64,000 bases of DNA, from the NCBI RefSeq assembly GCF_030815975.1, contig NZ_JAUSXL010000002.1, positions 4,018,501-4,082,500 on the forward strand, given 5' to 3'. The notes beneath the pieces were generated by a model. The model had not been told where the DNA came from. It searched no databases and was given only the letters and a program-made list of their open reading frames with translations. This document shows, piece by piece, positions 4,951 to 12,723 of the stretch. The translations under genes were made by a program, and so were the position numbers. Every line of letters starts with the position of its first letter. Within the stretch, counting starts at the first letter, position 1. This stretch comes from Variovorax paradoxus (GTDB taxonomy: Bacteria; Pseudomonadota; Gammaproteobacteria; Burkholderiales; Burkholderiaceae_C).

Positions 4951-5931
4951 GTGAACTCAAGCATTTCCAGCCCCGCCGCGCGCATCAAACGTGTCCTGGT
5001 GATCCACTATTCGCAGACCGGCCAGCTCGGCAGCGTCGCGGAGCAGATCGTCGCGCCACTCAGGGCCGATCCGGGGATCTCCGTGCACGTCGAAACCCTG
5101 CGCCCGCAGGCGGATTTCCCGTTCCCCTGGCCGTTCCTGACCTTCTTCGACGCGTTTCCGGAGTCGGCCCACATGAAGCCGCCGCCGCTCGCGCCGCTCT
5201 CGCTCACGGGCGACGAAGATTTCGACCTCGTCATCCTGCCGTACCAGGTCTGGTTCCTGGCGCCGTCGCAGCCGGTCGTCGCCTTCCTGAAGCACCCTCT
5301 GGCGCAGCGCCTGCTCGGGGGCAAGCCGGTGGTCACGGTCATCGCCTGCCGCAACATGTGGCTGCTGGCTCACGAGAAGCTCAAGGGCCTGCTCGACGCG
5401 GTGGGCGCGCGCCTCATCGACAACGTGGTGCTCACCGATCCCGGCCCGACGCTGGCCACTTTCTTCACCACGCCGGCCTGGCTGATCTGGGGCCGCAAGC
5501 GCGGTTTCTGGGGCATGCCCGATGCCGGCCTGAGCGAGGCACAGATCCGGGGCGCGGGCCGTTTCGGCCGGGCGCTGCGCGAGGCGCTCCGCAACGACCT
5601 GGAGCGCGGATTGCAGCCGCTGCTCGCGGGCCTGGGCGCGGTGCGGGCCGATGCGCGGCTTCTCATCAGCGAAAAGGCCGGCACGCGCAGCTTTTTCCTC
5701 TGGGGCAAGCTCATCATGGCGGCGGGCCGGCCCGGCGCCTGGCAGCGCAAGCCGCTGCTGCTGCTCTACGTGGTGTTCCTGCTCGTGCTCATCGTCACGG
5801 TCGTCCCGGTGAGCTTGAGCCTCCAGGCGCTGCTGCGGCCGTTGTTCAAGGGATGGCTGACTAAAATGACAGCCAGCTTCGAACGCCCTTCGGGCTCGGC
5901 CACGGACCGTTCCCCCCTCTATGACGACTGA
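4951..5931 (+). CDS. flavodoxin-like DarA-type dialkylresorcinol-forming enzyme
   Basis: A 326-residue protein with a flavodoxin-type FMN-binding loop at residues 21-25 (SQTGQ) after a beta strand (RVLVIHY), and a hydrophobic C-terminal anchor near residues 270-300. The family is annotated as dialkylresorcinol condensing enzyme (DarA) and acts with a KAS III-like partner in fusing two beta-keto acyl chains and aromatising the ring. The adjacent KAS III gene supports this. Start GTG 4951 is preferred because a -10-like TACATT lies at 4919-4924; an in-frame ATG at 4882 would add 23 residues. Its stop overlaps the next start by 11 bp. It opens a nine-gene operon. Exact chemistry here is inferred. 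Confidence 0.65.
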   Translation: MNSSISSPAARIKRVLVIHYSQTGQLGSVAEQIVAPLRADPGISVHVETLRPQADFPFPWPFLTFFDAFPESAHMKPPPLAPLSLTGDEDFDLVILPYQVWFLAPSQPVVAFLKHPLAQRLLGGKPVVTVIACRNMWLLAHEKLKGLLDAVGARLIDNVVLTDPGPTLATFFTTPAWLIWGRKRGFWGMPDAGLSEAQIRGAGRFGRALREALRNDLERGLQPLLAGLGAVRADARLLISEKAGTRSFFLWGKLIMAAGRPGAWQRKPLLLLYVVFLLVLIVTVVPVSLSLQALLRPLFKGWLTKMTASFERPSGSATDRSPLYDD

Positions 5932-7054
5932 AGTCTTCCTGACCCGCACCGCCGCCTTTCTGCCCTTTTCCCCGGTCAGCAATGAAGACATCGAAGACGT
6001 CCTCGGCCGCATCGGCGGCAAGGCCTCGCGCGCGCGGCGGCTGATTCTTCGCAGCAACGGCATCCAGTCGCGCCACTACGCCATCGACCGGGCCACCGGC
6101 CGGCTCGCGATGAGCAATGCGCAGCTCACCGCCTCGGCCATCCGGGCGCTCGGCGACATCGGCCCGGTGGATTGCCTCGCCACCGGCACCTCGCTGCCCG
6201 ACCAGCTCATGCCCAACCACGCGGTGATGGTGCATGGCGAGCTCGGCTGGCCGCGCCTCGAGGTGGTGGCTTGCGCGGGCATCTGCCTGGCGGGCACCAC
6301 GGCGCTCAAGCACGCGTGGCTCTCGGTGCGTTCGGGCGATGCGCGGCGCGCGGTGGCCACCGGCTCGGAACTGGCCTCCGCCGTGATGCGCGGCTCCAGG
6401 TTCGAGGCCGAGCTCGAGCACAAGCTCCAGGCGCTCGAAGAGCGGCCGGAGCTCGCCTTCGAGAAAGACTTCCTGCGCTGGATGCTGTCCGACGGCGCCG
6501 GCGCCGTGCTGCTCGAGCGCGAGCCGCGCGGCCCGCTGTCGCTGCGCGTGGAATGGATCGACCTGTCTTCCGCCGCGCACGAGCTGCCGGTGTGCATGTA
6601 TGCAGGCGCCGACAAGAATGCCGAGGGCGGGCTCGACGGCTGGGCGCGCACCGCCCCCGAAGACTGGCGGCGCGAGTCGACCTTCGCGGTCAAGCAGGAC
6701 GTACGCCTGCTCAACGAGAACATCGTGCGCGCCACGCTGGGCGAGCCGCTGGCGGCCATCGTCGAGAAGCGCGGCCTGAAGGCGGCCGACATCGACTGGT
6801 TCCTGCCGCACCTGTCGTCCGGCTATTTCGTCGAACCCGTGAGCCGCTGCCTCGAGGCGATGGGCTTTGCGATTCCGCGCGAGCGCTGGTTCAGCAACCT
6901 CGCGACCAAGGGCAACACCGGGTCGGCATCGCCCTACATCATGCTCGACGAGTTGTTCCGCTCAGGCCGCATCGAGCCCGGCCACAAGCTGCTGATGTTC
7001 GTGCCCGAAAGCGGCCGCTTCTCGAGCGGCTTCATCTACATGGAAGCCGTGTGA
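5921..7054 (+). CDS. beta-ketoacyl-ACP synthase III-like enzyme (DarB-like)
   Basis: A 377-residue KAS III-fold enzyme. The catalytic triad is intact: Cys118 in VACAG, His297 in FLPHLSS and Asn332 in GNTGSAS. FabH normally starts fatty acid synthesis, but copies located beside a DarA-type gene are ketosynthases that join two beta-ketoacyl thioesters. The substrate region around residues 155-185 is long and charged, unlike housekeeping FabH. The gene overlaps the DarA-like gene by 11 bp, so the two are almost certainly co-translated. It could alternatively be a starter-unit condensing enzyme for the ACP and ketosynthase at 10872-12223. Confidence 0.8.
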   Translation: MTTEVFLTRTAAFLPFSPVSNEDIEDVLGRIGGKASRARRLILRSNGIQSRHYAIDRATGRLAMSNAQLTASAIRALGDIGPVDCLATGTSLPDQLMPNHAVMVHGELGWPRLEVVACAGICLAGTTALKHAWLSVRSGDARRAVATGSELASAVMRGSRFEAELEHKLQALEERPELAFEKDFLRWMLSDGAGAVLLEREPRGPLSLRVEWIDLSSAAHELPVCMYAGADKNAEGGLDGWARTAPEDWRRESTFAVKQDVRLLNENIVRATLGEPLAAIVEKRGLKAADIDWFLPHLSSGYFVEPVSRCLEAMGFAIPRERWFSNLATKGNTGSASPYIMLDELFRSGRIEPGHKLLMFVPESGRFSSGFIYMEAV

Positions 7055-7089
7055 CATGAACCCCGCCACAGCCCGCCGGAAAGACTGAC

Positions 7090-7485
7090 ATGGACCTCGA
7101 CGCTGTTCCGCAGGAAGGCAACGCCACGCTCGACGGCCACGCCAAGCTCATGTACGCGCGCGACGCGCAGGGCCGCGTGGTCACCACCCGCTCGCGCGGC
7201 TGGGAGGCGGAGGAAATCGTCACCAGCCATGCGGTCGACGTGCTCGTCGAGCAGGCCCGGGACGCGAAGGAACGCGTGGCCCGGGGGCTCGCGTCGCCGC
7301 TCGAATACTGGATGTACGAGCGCCGCATGGACGTGGCGCTGCTTTCGCAGACCAGCGGCTTCTGGCAATGGCGCGTGCGGCGCCACCTGAAGCCGAAGCA
7401 CTTCGCGGCGCTGCCGCAGAAGCACCTGGCGCGCTATTCGGAGGCGCTGGGCCTCCCCGTTTCCACCTTGCAGGGCCTGCCGTGA
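7090..7485 (+). CDS. unknown protein of the biosynthetic operon
   Basis: A 131-residue soluble protein that I do not recognise. It has no signal peptide or membrane segment. The middle (about residues 43-85) is predicted to be helical and charged, and the C-terminal third is rich in His, Lys and Arg with aromatic residues (SGFWQWRVRRHLKPKHF). ATG 7090 follows the ketosynthase gene by 35 bp, and its stop TGA overlaps the GTG start of the next gene (GTGA). The tight packing shows that it belongs to the pathway. A partner or chaperone of the BtrH-like enzyme would fit the coupling, but nothing in the sequence proves a function. Confidence 0.7.
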   Translation: MDLDAVPQEGNATLDGHAKLMYARDAQGRVVTTRSRGWEAEEIVTSHAVDVLVEQARDAKERVARGLASPLEYWMYERRMDVALLSQTSGFWQWRVRRHLKPKHFAALPQKHLARYSEALGLPVSTLQGLP

Positions 7486-8462
7486 AATTCGAACACCAAC
7501 AGGCGGCGCATTGCGAAAGCGGCGTCATCTCGAACCTCATGCGCCACCACGGCGTGCCCATGACCGAGAGCATGGCGCTCGGCCTGTCGTCGGCGCTGTC
7601 GTTCGCCTACCTGCCGTTCATCAAGCTCTCGGGCCTGCCGCTCATCTCGTACCGCATGCCGCCCAAGGCGATCATCAAGGGCCTCTTGGCGCCAATGGCC
7701 GCGCGCTTTCGCTTCGAGACCTTCCGCAGCCCCGAGGCCGGCGCGCAGCGCCTCGATGCACTGCTTGCGAGCGGGCAGATCGTGGGGCTGCAGACCTCGG
7801 TCTACTGGCTGCCGTACTTTCCGCCCAACATGCGCTTTCACTTCAACGCGCACAACCTGCTGGTGTACGGCAAGGAGGGCGACGACTACCTGATCAGCGA
7901 CCCGGTGTTCGAAGAGCCGGTGCGCTGCGCCAGCGCCGACCTCTCGCGTGCGCGCTTCGCCAAGGGCGTGCTCGCGCCCAAGGGCCTCATGTACTACCCG
8001 CAGGCCATCGAGCGCAAGACGGTCGATGCGGCGTCGGTGACCAAGGCGATCCGCAAGACGGTGCGCACCATGCTCGCGCCGGTTCCGATCGTCGGCGTGC
8101 GCGGCATGCGCACGCTGGCCAGGCGCATGCAGAAGCTGTCGCCGGCCGATCCGCGCAGCGTCGATTTCATCGGCCACGTGGTGCGCATGCAGGAAGAGAT
8201 CGGCACGGGTGGGGCAGGCTTCCGCTTCATCTACGCGGGCTTCCTGCAGGAGGCGGCGCAGTTGCTCGACAAGCCGCAGCTGCAGCAGATGTCCGAACGG
8301 CTCATCGCCATTGGCGACGATTGGCGTGCCTTCGCTCTGAAAGCGGCGCGCATGGTGAAGGGCCGCGAGCCGGTCGATCCCGCCGCGCTGGCTGGCAAGC
8401 TGCGGGAGCAGGCACAGCAGGAAGAGACATTCTTTCGCGACCTCAAGGCCGCTGTCGCCTGA
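7482..8462 (+). CDS. BtrH-like (N-terminal domain) acyltransferase-type protein
   Basis: A 326-residue protein starting at GTG 7482, which overlaps the previous stop. The N-terminus carries the pattern of the BtrH N-terminal family: an early Cys (residue 11, in AAHCESG) followed by a helix, and a downstream His/Asn segment (FHFNAHNLLVYG) in a papain/C39-like fold. In butirosin synthesis BtrH moves an acyl group from an acyl carrier protein to an acceptor, so this protein may transfer the finished acyl or polyketide chain from the ACP encoded at 10872. The C-terminal half (about residues 190-326) is helical and of unknown role. A 338-bp gap with repeat copy 2 follows. Confidence 0.65.
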   Translation: MKFEHQQAAHCESGVISNLMRHHGVPMTESMALGLSSALSFAYLPFIKLSGLPLISYRMPPKAIIKGLLAPMAARFRFETFRSPEAGAQRLDALLASGQIVGLQTSVYWLPYFPPNMRFHFNAHNLLVYGKEGDDYLISDPVFEEPVRCASADLSRARFAKGVLAPKGLMYYPQAIERKTVDAASVTKAIRKTVRTMLAPVPIVGVRGMRTLARRMQKLSPADPRSVDFIGHVVRMQEEIGTGGAGFRFIYAGFLQEAAQLLDKPQLQQMSERLIAIGDDWRAFALKAARMVKGREPVDPAALAGKLREQAQQEETFFRDLKAAVA

Positions 8463-8499
8463 ATGGAATCTTGTCTTTCTGTTCGTTGCGCTGGAGGGC

Positions 8500-8773
8500 A
8501 TTCAGGGCGCGCTCCCGCCGACGGGGTGCTCTGCTCCGCGAATGTCCCCCGGCCTGCGGCCTCCTCCTTTATTTCGCTGCGCAGAGCACCCCATCGACGG
8601 AAGCGATTTTCAGAGCGGTGGTTGATCAGCCGCGAACCGGCCGCGTGCCCAGGTGCACAGGGCATCGGGTGCTCCCCGCAGCGAAATCAAGGAGGAGGCG
8701 AAGCCGGGGGACATTCGCGGAGGGGAGTACCCGGTGGCCTGTGCACGCGCCCCGAACAGCAGCACCCCGAACA
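8500..8773. repeat. composite inverted-hairpin repeat, copy 2
   Basis: This fills the 338-bp gap between the BtrH-like gene and the exporter ATPase gene. It is collinear with 1526-1799 over 274 bp with no gap. Left-module stems are 8510-8534 and 8581-8605; right-module stems are 8653-8677 and 8722-8746. In the left stem the inner base pairs differ from copy 1 on both arms together (CTCTGC/GCAGAG here, CCTTGC/GCAAGG in copy 1), so pairing is preserved. Remaining stem mismatches are of the C-A kind, which become G-U pairs on the minus strand for the left module; the right module has G-U pairs on the plus strand. Confidence 0.85.
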
Positions 8774-8800
8774 AGAACAACAGCGCTCAGCCGCAGCCCG

Positions 8801-9709
8801 ATGCTCGAACTGAAGAACCTCGGCTACCGCTATCCGCACGCCGACGCCGCCGCGCTGGCCGACGTCTCGCTCGCGGTGCCCCGAGGCTGCGTGATGGGCT
8901 TGCTAGGCCCCAACGGCGCGGGCAAGACCACGCTGATCTCGCACCTCTCGGGCGCGCTCGCGGTGCAGTCGGGCGAGATCCGCATCGACGGACAACCGCT
9001 GCAGCAGGTGCGCGCCAAGGCCCCCACGCGCATCGCGGTCGCGCCGCAGGACCAGGCCTTCTATCCGATGCTCACCGTGGCCGAGAACCTGGCCTGCTTC
9101 GCCGCGGCGGGCGGCCTCGCCGGCGCGCGCAAGAAGGAACGCATCGAGGCCTGCACGCGCTTCTCACAGCTCGAACAGTTTGCCGGCGTGCGTGCCGAGC
9201 GGCTCTCGGGCGGCCTCAGGCGCCGCCTCAACCTGGCGATCGCGCTGCTGCCCGAACCCGAGCTGATGCTGTTCGACGAGCCCACGGTGGGCGTCGATCC
9301 GCAGTCGCGCGCCTTCATTCTCGATGCCATCAAGAGCCTGGCGCAGCAGGGTGCGGCGGTGATCTATGCCTCGCACTACATGGAAGAGATCGAGGCCATT
9401 GCCGACCGCGTGGCCATCCTCGACCATGGCCGCGTTCTGCGCGAAGGCTCGCTCGAGGAACTGCTCTCGAAGAGCGCCATGCTGCTCACGCTGGCGGCCG
9501 ACGGGCTCGACGCGCAGAGGCTCTCGCGCTTCGGCACGGTGGAGCAGGGCGGCGTGCATTGGCGCATTCACCTGCGCGAAGGCACCGGGCCCGGTCCGGT
9601 GCTGCAGGCTCTGGAGGCCGAAGGCATCGAGGTGCGCCATGCCGAGTTCGGCCGGCACGACCTCGAGCAGCTCTTCATGTCGCTCACCCATCGCTCGCTG
9701 CGCGACTGA
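8801..9709 (+). CDS. ABC-2 exporter ATPase
   Basis: A 302-residue ABC ATPase of the drug/antibiotic exporter class. Walker A is GPNGAGKTT (about residues 36-44), the signature motif LSGGLRRRL and Walker B LMLFDEPTVGVD. A C-terminal extension of about 80 residues follows the H-loop, as in NodI/CcmA-like exporters. ATG 8801 is chosen because it begins the conserved MLELKNLGYRY strand; the preceding sequence is repeat. It lies 8 bp before the permease gene. It probably exports the product of the surrounding biosynthetic genes or places it in the outer envelope. Confidence 0.85.
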   Translation: MLELKNLGYRYPHADAAALADVSLAVPRGCVMGLLGPNGAGKTTLISHLSGALAVQSGEIRIDGQPLQQVRAKAPTRIAVAPQDQAFYPMLTVAENLACFAAAGGLAGARKKERIEACTRFSQLEQFAGVRAERLSGGLRRRLNLAIALLPEPELMLFDEPTVGVDPQSRAFILDAIKSLAQQGAAVIYASHYMEEIEAIADRVAILDHGRVLREGSLEELLSKSAMLLTLAADGLDAQRLSRFGTVEQGGVHWRIHLREGTGPGPVLQALEAEGIEVRHAEFGRHDLEQLFMSLTHRSLRD

Positions 9710-9717
9710 GGAACCCC

Positions 9718-10875
9718 ATGCTCTTCGCGCTCATCAAGAAGGAACTGCTCGCGCTCGTGCGCGACATGCACGGGCTGGCGGCGCTGTTCCTGATGCCGAT
9801 GGTCTTCATCGTGCTGATGTCGCTCACGCTGAAGGACATCTACCGCCCGCCGCTCGCGGAGCTGAGCTATGCGGTCGACCGGCGCGACACCGAGACGCCG
9901 GCGCAATGGCTGCAGCAGATCTGGCAGCGCAGCCACGGCGCACCCAAGGCGCTCGACGCCGACTGGCAGGCGCAGTTGCGCAGCGGCGCGCTCAAGTACG
10001 TGATCGTGCTGGAGCCCGGCCTGTCGGCGGAACTCGAATCGGCCGCGCTGTCGACCCAGGCCCACATCCGGCTGCTGACGGAGCCCGGCATCGACGCCAA
10101 CCTGTTCAACGCACTGCGCGCCGAACTCGTCGGAGCGTCCGGCGAACTGAAGGCGCGCCTGGCGCTGGCGGTGCCCGGCACCTCGGGCCCGCCGCCGGGC
10201 GCCTCGATCCAGGCGCTGGTGAAGGCCGAGCGCTATTCCACCGCCGGGCCGCGGCCCACCTCGGTGCAGCAGAACGTGCCGGCGTGGCTGGTGTTCGGCA
10301 TGTTCTTCGTGGTTGCCTCGCTCTCGAGCCTGTTCGTGCAGGAGCGCAGCTCGGGCGCGCTGGGCCGGCTGCGCAGCCTGGGCGTGTCGCGTTTCATGCT
10401 GCTGATGTCGAAGGCGCTGCCCTACCTTGGCGTGAACGCGCTGCAGGCCGTGCTGATGCTGGCCGCCGGCATCTGGCTGATGCCGCTGATCGGCGGCGAC
10501 GCGCTCTCGCTCGCGGGCATCCATTGGGGCGCGCTGGTGCTGGCGCTCGCGGCCGTGAGCCTGGCCGCGGTGAGCCTGTCGCTGGCGCTTGCGTGCGCGG
10601 TGCGCAGCCATGCGCAGGCAGCGACCATCGGGCCGATGGTCAACGTGCTGATGGCGGCGGCCGGCGGCATCATGGTGCCGAAGTTCGTCATGCCGGGCTT
10701 CATGCAGCGGCTGGTCGAGATCTCGCCGATGAACTGGGGCCTGGAGGCGCTGCTCACCGTGCTGCTGCGCGGCGGCGGCATGGCCGACACGCTGCCGCAG
10801 GTCGGCCGGCTCGTGATGTTTGCGGCCGCCATGTTCCTTCTCGCCGTCTTTCTGTTTCGCAGGCCCGCATCGTGA
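9718..10875 (+). CDS. ABC-2 exporter permease
   Basis: A 385-residue ABC-2 type permease. One membrane helix sits at residues 17-40, followed by a periplasmic domain of about 150 residues (roughly 45-195) and five more helices in the C-terminal half, with the typical ABC-2 stretch (VVASLSSLFVQERSSG, then LRSLGVSRF) at about residues 200-225. This is the YhgE/DrrB-like layout with a large extracytoplasmic loop. The stop TGA overlaps the GTG start of the ACP gene (GTGA), coupling export to biosynthesis. The substrate is unknown. Confidence 0.85.
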   Translation: MLFALIKKELLALVRDMHGLAALFLMPMVFIVLMSLTLKDIYRPPLAELSYAVDRRDTETPAQWLQQIWQRSHGAPKALDADWQAQLRSGALKYVIVLEPGLSAELESAALSTQAHIRLLTEPGIDANLFNALRAELVGASGELKARLALAVPGTSGPPPGASIQALVKAERYSTAGPRPTSVQQNVPAWLVFGMFFVVASLSSLFVQERSSGALGRLRSLGVSRFMLLMSKALPYLGVNALQAVLMLAAGIWLMPLIGGDALSLAGIHWGALVLALAAVSLAAVSLSLALACAVRSHAQAATIGPMVNVLMAAAGGIMVPKFVMPGFMQRLVEISPMNWGLEALLTVLLRGGGMADTLPQVGRLVMFAAAMFLLAVFLFRRPAS

Positions 10876-11147
10876 CCCACTCCCATTCCGCCGAATTCAT
10901 CGCCAGCCTGAAGGCCATGGTGCTCGAGGCCGTCGAGAAAGACGCGCCGCCGGGCGGCCTTGGCGACGACGAGCCGCTGTTCGGGCCCGAGGCCCGGCTC
11001 GACCTCGATTCGCTCGACGCGCTGCAGGTTTCGATGACGATCCAGCAGCGCTTCGGCGTGCGCATGCCCGACAGCAAGGAAACGCGCCGCGCGCTCACCT
11101 CCATCGCCCATCTGGCCGACCACCTGGTGCAAGCGGGCAAGGCATGA
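10872..11147 (+). CDS. acyl carrier protein
   Basis: A 91-residue acyl carrier protein. The phosphopantetheine site is Ser47 in LDLDSLDALQ, followed by the recognition helix. It starts at GTG 10872, overlapping the permease stop, and its own stop overlaps the ketosynthase start (ATGA). It would carry the growing chain for the ketosynthase at 11144 and hand it to the KAS III-like/DarA-like pair or to the BtrH-like protein. It is longer at the N-terminus (about 12 residues) than housekeeping AcpP. No dedicated phosphopantetheinyl transferase gene is present in the window. Confidence 0.85.
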   Translation: MTHSHSAEFIASLKAMVLEAVEKDAPPGGLGDDEPLFGPEARLDLDSLDALQVSMTIQQRFGVRMPDSKETRRALTSIAHLADHLVQAGKA

Positions 11148-12223
11148 GCGGTGGGAGCGTGTACCTGGCCGGCATGGGCCTAGCCTGCACGCTGGGCAAC
11201 GATCTTCCGACCGCCGTGGCGGCCCTGGCGCGCGGCGGCGTGCGGCCCGTGCCGGTGGCAGTCTCGGAAGGCGTGCAGTGGCCGGTCCACATGCTGCCGC
11301 CGCAGGAGGGCGACTGGAAGCAGCGGCTGGAGCGCGTCGTGCGCAGCGTGGCCGCGCAGGCGTACGAAGGAACGGCGGCAGCGCGGTCCGGTCCGCTCTT
11401 CGTCGCATCGTCCTCGCTGGACATCGGCGGCATGGAGCACACGGTGCAGGATCTGCGGCTGGGCGGCGACCTGCAGGACTTTGCCGGCCTCGTGGCCGCT
11501 GCGCTCGACTGGCGCGGGCCGGTCTTCACCATCTCCACGGCCTGCACCTCGGCGCTCAACGCGGTGCTCGCGGGCTGCGATCTCATCCGGAGCGGGCAGG
11601 CCGACGAGGCGCTGGTGATCGGTGCCGAGTTGGGCAACCGCTTCACGGTGGCCGGCTTCGGCGCGATGCAGCTGCTCTCGTCCGACGGCGCGCAGCCCTT
11701 CGGCGCCGGCCGCAACGGGCTGGTGCTCGGCGAGGCGGTGGCCGCATTGCGCCTGGGCTCGCGCGCGGCGCGCTGGCGCATCGCGGGCGGGGCCAATGTG
11801 GTCGACGGGCGCAATCCCTCGGGCACCGAGGCCAGCGCAGTGCTCGCCATGTGCCATCAGGCGCTGGCGCAGAGCGGGCTGCGGCCGCAGGACATCGACC
11901 TGATCAAGGTGCAGGCCGCGGGCAGCCCGGCCAACGATGCGATCGAGGCGCTGGCGTTGAAGCAGGTCTTCGATCCGCTGCCGCCGCTGGTGTCGCTCAA
12001 GTCGGCGATCGGCCACACGCTGGGCGCCTCGGGTGCCGCCGAGCTGGCCTTGCTCGTTGGCTGCATCGAAGCTGGCGTGTGGCCGTCGGCCGGCTATGCC
12101 ATTGATGACGAGCTCGGCATTGCCCTGAGCACGCAGGCGCCAGCAGTGCTGCGCAACATCCTGCTCAACGTGGTCGGGTTCGGCGGCGGGCATGCCTCGT
12201 TGGTGCTGGAGGATGGCCGATGA
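11144..12223 (+). CDS. FabF-like beta-ketoacyl synthase with altered active site
   Basis: A 359-residue thiolase-fold ketosynthase, short compared with FabF (about 410). The nucleophile is Cys134 in STACTSAL and the second histidine is His291 in KSAIGHTLGASG. The first catalytic histidine of KAS I/II enzymes, found in a NAHGT-type motif, is replaced: the aligned segment reads IKVQAAGSPAND, putting Gln257 at that position. The active site is therefore Cys-Gln-His. It may be a condensing enzyme with altered decarboxylation chemistry, or an acyl-transfer or partner subunit. It is coupled to the ACP upstream and to the chain-length-factor-like gene downstream by ATGA overlaps. Confidence 0.8.
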   Translation: MSGGSVYLAGMGLACTLGNDLPTAVAALARGGVRPVPVAVSEGVQWPVHMLPPQEGDWKQRLERVVRSVAAQAYEGTAAARSGPLFVASSSLDIGGMEHTVQDLRLGGDLQDFAGLVAAALDWRGPVFTISTACTSALNAVLAGCDLIRSGQADEALVIGAELGNRFTVAGFGAMQLLSSDGAQPFGAGRNGLVLGEAVAALRLGSRAARWRIAGGANVVDGRNPSGTEASAVLAMCHQALAQSGLRPQDIDLIKVQAAGSPANDAIEALALKQVFDPLPPLVSLKSAIGHTLGASGAAELALLVGCIEAGVWPSAGYAIDDELGIALSTQAPAVLRNILLNVVGFGGGHASLVLEDGR

Positions 12224-12723
12224 AGGCTGGTTCCGCCCAGGCATGGCGCACCGTCGCCCACTTCTCGGCCGAGCCGCTGCCCGTTGATTGGCGCGACCAG
12301 CTCGCGCACCGGCTCGGCCGGCGGCCGCGGCGCGTCGGCCTCTGGACCGAACTCGCGATGTTCGGGGCCCGGCAGTGCCTCGATGCCGCGGGCGAGGCGG
12401 CCTTGCCCGCGGGTGCCCGCCTGCGCGTATCGAGCCTGCGCGGCGCCTGGGGCGTGACGCATGCGGGCCTGGCGCAGCTCGATGCGGGCATGCTGATGCC
12501 GTTCACCTTCATGCAGGGCCAGCCTGCGCTGATGCTGGCGGAGGTCGGCCGCTGCCTCGAATGGCAGGGCGATGCGAGCTTTGCGCTCAGCCGCGATCCG
12601 CAGCAGCTGCTGCAGCTCTCGAAGCTGGGCGCCGGAAGCGCCGGCTTGCTGGTCGGCGTGGTGGAAGAGGAGCGCAATGGCGAGAAGCCGCGCTCCGAAT
12701 GGTGGCGGCTGGTGCCGGCCTGA
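12220..12723 (+). CDS. chain-length-factor-like ketosynthase fragment protein
   Basis: A 167-residue protein resembling the N-terminal half of a ketosynthase without the catalytic Cys, as in the beta-ketoacyl synthase chain-length-factor-like family of aryl polyene and related clusters. The region around residues 70-110 (SSLRGAWGVTHAGLAQL, then MPFTFMQGQPALML) aligns with the segment before the missing nucleophile. It probably forms a heterodimer with the 11144 ketosynthase and shapes its chain-length pocket. ATG 12220 overlaps the ketosynthase stop. It is the last gene of the operon; a convergent gene ends 31 bp downstream. Family assignment is by pattern and is moderate. Confidence 0.55.
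   Translation: MKAGSAQAWRTVAHFSAEPLPVDWRDQLAHRLGRRPRRVGLWTELAMFGARQCLDAAGEAALPAGARLRVSSLRGAWGVTHAGLAQLDAGMLMPFTFMQGQPALMLAEVGRCLEWQGDASFALSRDPQQLLQLSKLGAGSAGLLVGVVEEERNGEKPRSEWWRLVPA

Follow-up and report, generated by a model that had tools for sequence, protein, structure and literature searches.

One of the closest described counterparts of the genes treated here is the dialkylresorcinol (DAR) locus of Azoarcus sp. BH72 (azo0293-azo0283), reported in 2014 by Schoner, Fuchs, Reinhold-Hurek and Bode (PMC3949708). Its genes are tabulated there in the order darA, darB, darD, darE (BtrH-like), darF (ATPase), darG, darH, darI (permease), darC (acyl carrier protein, ACP), darJ (ketosynthase, KS) and darK. 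The proposed product, arcuflavin, is a xanthomonadin-like aryl-heptaene esterified to a DAR; the proposal was drawn from mass spectrometry and labelling without nuclear magnetic resonance, and insertion mutants in either polyene locus are described as colourless. The same paper states that three Variovorax paradoxus strains (the named ones include S110 and EPS) carry both cluster types. The locus considered in this study is a run of nine genes at positions 4951-12723 of a 64,000-nucleotide stretch of V. paradoxus DNA, the window, which covers C2:4018501-4082500 of a 6.09-Mb genome in two contigs. The locus can be assigned to the arcuflavin-type pathway with high confidence. It is very probably the DAR module of such a pathway, in which a xanthomonadin-like aryl polyene is ester-linked to a DAR.

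All nine genes are real, with open frames on the forward strand. Their content and order (darA-B-D-E-F-I-C-J-K), on which the comparison was based, are those of Azoarcus BH72, and in both genomes the polyene genes lie at two unlinked loci. According to the published table, Azoarcus adds darG (PHD-like) and darH (PilT domain) between the ATPase and permease genes, whereas the window has a repeat between darE and darF. The gene-by-gene match to V. paradoxus S110 is drawn from the text of the same paper. An initial annotation, made from the DNA of the window, had called the genes correctly but had presented them as a novel resorcinol pathway with its own exporter, on the premise that neither an exporter nor a BtrH-like enzyme belongs to known DAR loci. 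This claim of novelty is mistaken: the 2014 Azoarcus table lists a BtrH-like darE together with darF and darI as ATP-binding cassette (ABC) genes, and the 131-aa protein and the BtrH-like protein both have named families in NCBIfam. The gene set is already known since 2014 as a pigment module, in a related bacterium and in Variovorax. The names of Schoner et al. are used here; NCBIfam DarG and DarH correspond to their darD and darE (PMC3949708).

The flexirubin clusters of Bacteroidota are a further described relative (PMC3992019). As presented there, they share with this locus a DAR-polyene ester, DarA and DarB, and LolA- and exporter-type genes. The flexirubin starter derives from tyrosine, whereas a XanB2-type chorismatase is found here, a contrast drawn solely from the presence of the chorismatase. 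In 2014 the flexirubin ester step was tentatively given to the ligase-like FlxW (PMC3992019). No later test of the polyene-DAR ester step was found in a literature search, most subscription papers being outside its scope.

The conservation of the dar genes was assessed in the closest 80 of 219 confirmed DarB loci, obtained through a DarB scan of species genomes, with homologues detected by tblastn. DarA was present in all 80 loci, DarD in 78, DarE in 77, the ACP and DarJ in 71 each, the ATPase in 68, the permease in 65 and DarK in 59. Several of these loci are cut by contig ends, and the ATPase matches of two, L029 and L070, are weak paralogues. In the 52 loci flanked by about 10 kb on either side, DarA, DarD, DarE, the ACP and DarJ were found without exception, the ATPase in 51 (a weak paralogue in L070), the permease in 50 and DarK in 43. 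The complete set of nine occurs in 41 of the 52, so that conservation in relatives, the check named by the initial annotation, turned out as it had expected. The gene order of the window is seen in 51 of the 53 nine-gene loci. The darJ-darK pair lies upstream of darA in 8 of the 59 loci having both genes, and six of these eight are without the exporter pair.

The polyene half of the pathway is encoded elsewhere in the genome. The first polyene locus (C2:4611470-4620985) holds genes for an ACP, a small family-less protein, an AMP-ligase with a FabA-like tail, a LolA_3 protein, a methyltransferase and a ketoreductase. It also encodes a weakly acyltransferase-like protein (26 bits) and a weakly RND-like exporter (60 bits), both far under cut-off. 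A XanB2-like, FkbO/Hyg5-type chorismatase (PF21168) is encoded at C2:4623217-4623594. Halogenase-like, Ketoacyl-synt_2 (chain-length factor (CLF)-like) and KS genes make up the second locus, at about C2:2178510-2182370. By gene content, the two unlinked loci appear to correspond to the Azoarcus arc loci. Xanthomonadin-like polyene genes and a XanB2-type chorismatase, the combination looked for as a sign of the arcuflavin pathway, thus occur in one genome. KS/ACP pairs at C2:52328 and C2:1939379 were also considered as polyene genes and were dropped because their neighbours, judged by eye, did not fit. In at least 13 of the 80 dar loci (L052, L061, L062, L064, L067-L071, L073, L074, L077 and L079) polyene genes lie in one stretch with dar genes; this count used one frame labelled DH from the own-genome locus, a label without family basis.

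The association of the two halves was followed in a class sample of 276 genomes, the present one included, with PF13723 as the polyene marker, scanned in 59. The DarB cut-off is passed by 16 of the 276, the present genome among them, and all 16 carry PF13723. Among 39 hand-picked genomes lacking a DarB over the cut-off, 8 have the marker (Fisher p 2.5e-8 against 16/16, the picks being non-random). DarE exceeds its own cut-off in 15 of the 16, and four genomes with sub-threshold DarB-like proteins have neither DarE nor PF13723 (0/4 for each). The genus sample comprised 81 genomes (G000-G012 and G021-G088; Variovorax as judged from the nearest named loci), in which DarE was found in 44 and PF13723 in 79; the two genomes negative for the marker (62% and 58% complete) are both without DarE. 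The polyene is nearly a core trait of the genus, and the DAR module an optional one. The nesting of dar within polyene carriers fits a capping module, yet it provides no test there.

The product would most likely be a DAR esterified to an aryl polyene and not a free resorcinol lipid, because polyene genes are present in the own genome, share a stretch with dar genes in the loci listed above and accompany every DarB over the cut-off in the class sample. The initial annotation had suggested that a resorcinol or acyl product is made and exported. Its assignment to DAR biosynthesis with export is broadly right, given the DarB score of 588.9 bits and the genes being kept together. A free DAR or other resorcinol lipid as the exported end product is very unlikely: although Chitinophaga pinensis darA and darB yield DAR in a heterologous host (PMC3992019) and the ABC pair adjoins the dar genes, both the polyene genes of this genome and the 16/16 marker count speak against it.

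The families that the initial annotation gave to DarB, the BtrH-like protein, the ABC pair, the ACP and the KS were borne out by Pfam and NCBIfam. The first gene, darA (4951..5931, 326 aa, GTG start), encodes a protein of the dialkylresorcinol aromatase type, named for its position and as in Table 1 of PMC3949708. DarA has no Pfam or NCBIfam match, and its PDB sequence matches are at chance level only; a homologue is found near DarB in 80/80 loci. The second gene, darB (5921..7054, 377 aa), encodes a StlD/DarB-type ketosynthase (cyclase). The 588.9 bits of DarB against the StlD/DarB model NF005293 exceed the cut-off of 450, and its 460.4 bits against the strict DarB model NF053539 fall short of 550. 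Against the StlD structure 5gk0 a match of 412 bits extends across residues 1-375 with the active sites aligned. StlD, an enzyme of stilbene biosynthesis that is not known to have a polyene partner, differs from DarB in this respect. The nucleophile of DarB is Cys122, which is invariant in 81/81 aligned rows and aligned with the StlD cysteine. His297 and Asn332 are each found in 80 of the 81, the remaining row being a gap, and DarB thus carries the Cys122-His297-Asn332 triad of StlD/DarB ketosynthases. Of the triad first proposed, His297 and Asn332 were right; Cys118 is ruled out as the nucleophile, with cysteine at this position in just 39/81 rows. The nearest named DarB, from V. paradoxus NBRC 15149, is 99% identical, and the two loci share about 93-94% DNA identity in the region of the operon.

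The protein encoded by darD (7090..7485, 131 aa) had been described as unknown, but it belongs to the named family NF053536 DarG_fam (166.4 bits, cut-off 70). It scores 122.2 bits against the flexirubin DarG model NF053545, under the cut-off of 170. The predicted structure has a model pLDDT of 88.5 and gave weak Foldseek matches only (best E 0.017), XRE-type repressors among them. By eye, the C-terminal half (about residues 70-127) has the look of an XRE-type helix-turn-helix, with weak fold likeness; the protein is conserved as a pathway protein.

The next gene, darE (7482..8462, GTG start), encodes a BtrH-like acyltransferase by family. Its domains are PF14399 (BtrH_N) and PF16169 (DUF4872), and it reaches 492.6 bits against NF053550 DarH_acyl, ‘BtrH-related acyltransferase DarH’ (cut-off 300). 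A PDB sequence search with DarE gave chance-level matches only. BtrH_N has been placed among the papain-like domains, and BtrH itself is described as an ACP:aminoglycoside acyltransferase (PMC10318531). Cys11, His124 and Asp140 of DarE are present in 78/78 aligned rows, and we infer that they form a catalytic, papain-like set. On these grounds DarE is the probable ester former. A different view would place the step with an enzyme of the polyene locus, either an acyltransferase (ArcR, for instance) or a FlxW-like ligase, and leave DarE with another role. FlxW is the 2014 guess for flexirubin (PMC3992019), the own-genome polyene locus has its weakly acyltransferase-like gene, and one class genome, G265, has DarB over the cut-off and the polyene marker with no DarE match; a different enzyme for the ester step might be found at its DarB locus. 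This view is considered somewhat unlikely, as DarE accompanies DarB in 15/16 class genomes over the cut-off and 0/4 below it and its Cys-His-Asp residues are invariant. In the genus, moreover, the polyene is near universal and DarE optional, which fits an enzyme needed only with a DAR.

The last three genes encode a carrier protein and a pair of ketosynthase-like proteins. DarC (10872..11147), whose GTG start overlaps the permease stop, matches PF00550 at 26.7 bits (cut-off 20.8) and has its carrier-site Ser47 in 72/72 rows. DarJ (11144..12223; PF00109/PF02801) has ApeO (6qsp_A) as its best PDB sequence match. Cys134, Lys286 and His291 of DarJ are found in 72/72 rows, and Gln257 occupies the position of the HGTGT histidine in 61/72. 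Compared with the Cys-His-His set of elongating FabF-type enzymes, DarJ keeps Cys134 and His291 and has Gln257 at the first histidine. The polyene KS of the own genome, unlike DarJ, keeps NMHGTAS. DarK (12220..12723) is a 167-aa half-ketosynthase without a Pfam or NCBIfam family and without a PDB sequence match. A Foldseek search of its model places it in the KS/CLF fold, the top two matches being the small (ApeC) chains of the 6qsp and 7f28 complexes, in agreement with the earlier view of this protein as chain-length-factor-like. The pair therefore resembles the ApeO-ApeC KS/CLF heterodimer (6qsp; 7F28 is AbApeO-AbApeC), with DarJ nearest ApeO and DarK nearest ApeC; it differs in that DarJ is without the HGTGT histidine present in ApeO and DarK is shorter.

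The HGTGT histidine is the decarboxylating residue of ketosynthases, and non-elongating KS domains occur in trans-acyltransferase (trans-AT) polyketide synthases (PKSs). The H298Q form of E. coli KAS I is described as decarboxylation-deficient, a literature search having given no paper on it; PDB 2bz4, of this mutant, is present among the listed structures. Loss of this histidine suggests that DarJ, DarK and DarC act as an acyl relay, which is put at slightly less than an even chance. They might instead make or extend beta-ketoacyl chains for DarB, with DarJ as an ordinary extending KS and DarK as a chain-length factor. This is consistent with the KS/CLF fold of DarK and its ApeC match, with the retention of Cys134, Lys286 and His291, and with the presence of an own ACP. 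It also has a parallel in AmcF-AmcG of cispentacin biosynthesis, where a KS-like enzyme likewise has a motif-less partner and a dedicated ACP, and where the chemistry of the reconstituted pair is elongation and cyclisation (PMC10698177). DarJ is only distantly similar, however: at 114 bits it misses the AmcF model NF058662 (cut-off 325) and was rejected as a member of that family. The glutamine in 61/72 rows, the KAS I deficiency and the sufficiency of C. pinensis darA and darB for DAR (PMC3992019) all argue against extension, which is judged unlikely. In the DarJ tree, a supported branch (100/98) sets off all 36 Gln-type rows included, together with one His-type row, and DarK was not found in any of the 10 His-type DarJ loci across it. 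A second arrangement was observed in L082, L086, L089-L091, L094, L097, L099 and L100. In these loci darA-B-D-E read forward and the genes for the KS, the ACP and the ABC pair in the reverse direction, with DarK not found, and their KS retains an HGTGT-type histidine in all except L082.

The proposed pathway would run as follows. DarB joins two acyl precursors and DarA aromatises the ring, giving DAR. The polyenoyl chain would reach the carrier DarC through DarJ and DarK, which, with the acyl-accepting cysteine kept and the decarboxylating histidine gone, would pass chains on and not extend them. DarE would then take the polyenoyl chain on Cys11 and transfer it to a phenolic hydroxyl of DAR, with DarD as an accessory. 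The ATPase DarF (8801..9709; PF00005, E 4.1e-31) and the ABC-2 permease DarI (9718..10875; PF12698, E 6.3e-28; PF01061, E 2e-21) would move the pigment across the inner membrane, and the LolA-like and RND-like proteins of the polyene locus would carry it to the outer membrane. A role of DarF and DarI as pigment exporter is somewhat more likely than not. The full scheme, in which DarJ-DarK-DarC is a KS pair that has lost decarboxylation and shuttles acyl chains from a polyene carrier protein to the DAR-side carrier before the papain-fold DarE makes the aryl ester, is offered as a tentative proposal from sequence and is judged less likely than not.

Several observations weigh against this pathway or parts of it. 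Of the 71 loci with DarJ, 7 showed no exporter pair in the DNA retrieved around them; a contig end truncates two of these, L069 and L095, and not the other five. Given these loci and the two weak ATPase paralogues, the exporter need not lie next to the other genes. Histidine is retained in 11/72 DarJ rows, which the relay idea does not cover, and the DarJ tree has long branches meeting and a root placed by midpoint only. If G265 makes the ester, DarE is not the sole ester former. The 44/44 overlap of DarE and polyene in the genus is uninformative by itself because the marker is found in 79/81 genomes. The XanB2-like chorismatase, present in 81/81, does not discriminate and was dropped as a polyene marker in the genus.

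Five gene junctions overlap, by 11, 4, 4, 4 and 4 nt. The spacings of 35 nt between darB and darD and of 338 nt between darE and darF do not conform to the co-translation first proposed for the whole set. The operon is split by the 338-nt gap, and because of this gap between darE and the ATPase gene, co-translation of all nine genes is not shown by the sequence. The gap is filled partly by a dispersed, partly self-complementary 274-nt repeat (8500..8773, no strand), with a second copy at 1526-1799. Eleven Variovorax loci (L022-L027, L029, L035, L036, L041 and L066) carry this repeat, of about 270 nt and best matching in either orientation, between darE and darF, and a copy is also present at L017:3774-4029. 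Among the 43 loci whose darE-darF junction was measured (L022-L066), 28 have just a few nt there. The repeat looks like a MITE-type element inserted within the operon. In the Pfam and NCBIfam scans the DarE, ATPase, permease, ACP and KS proteins had starts displaced by a few codons; the coordinates given here are those of the corrected starts. Elsewhere in the genome, C2:3.62-3.65 Mb and 4.22-4.23 Mb hold long open frames that each encode several domains of the carrier-protein and ketosynthase types and are probably PKS/NRPS (nonribosomal peptide synthetase) clusters.

The new points are modest: the invariant Cys-His-Asp of DarE, the Gln-type DarJ and the half-ketosynthase DarK. Two enzymes of the set hint at a way in which the pigment halves could be joined. 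If the scheme is true, the acyl shuttle would represent a stand-alone type II equivalent of the non-elongating ketosynthases found in trans-AT PKSs, and the joining of flexirubin- and arcuflavin-type pigments would be settled. With polyene genes in 79/81 genomes and dar genes in 44/81, Variovorax offers a natural comparison of the polyene with and without its resorcinol cap.

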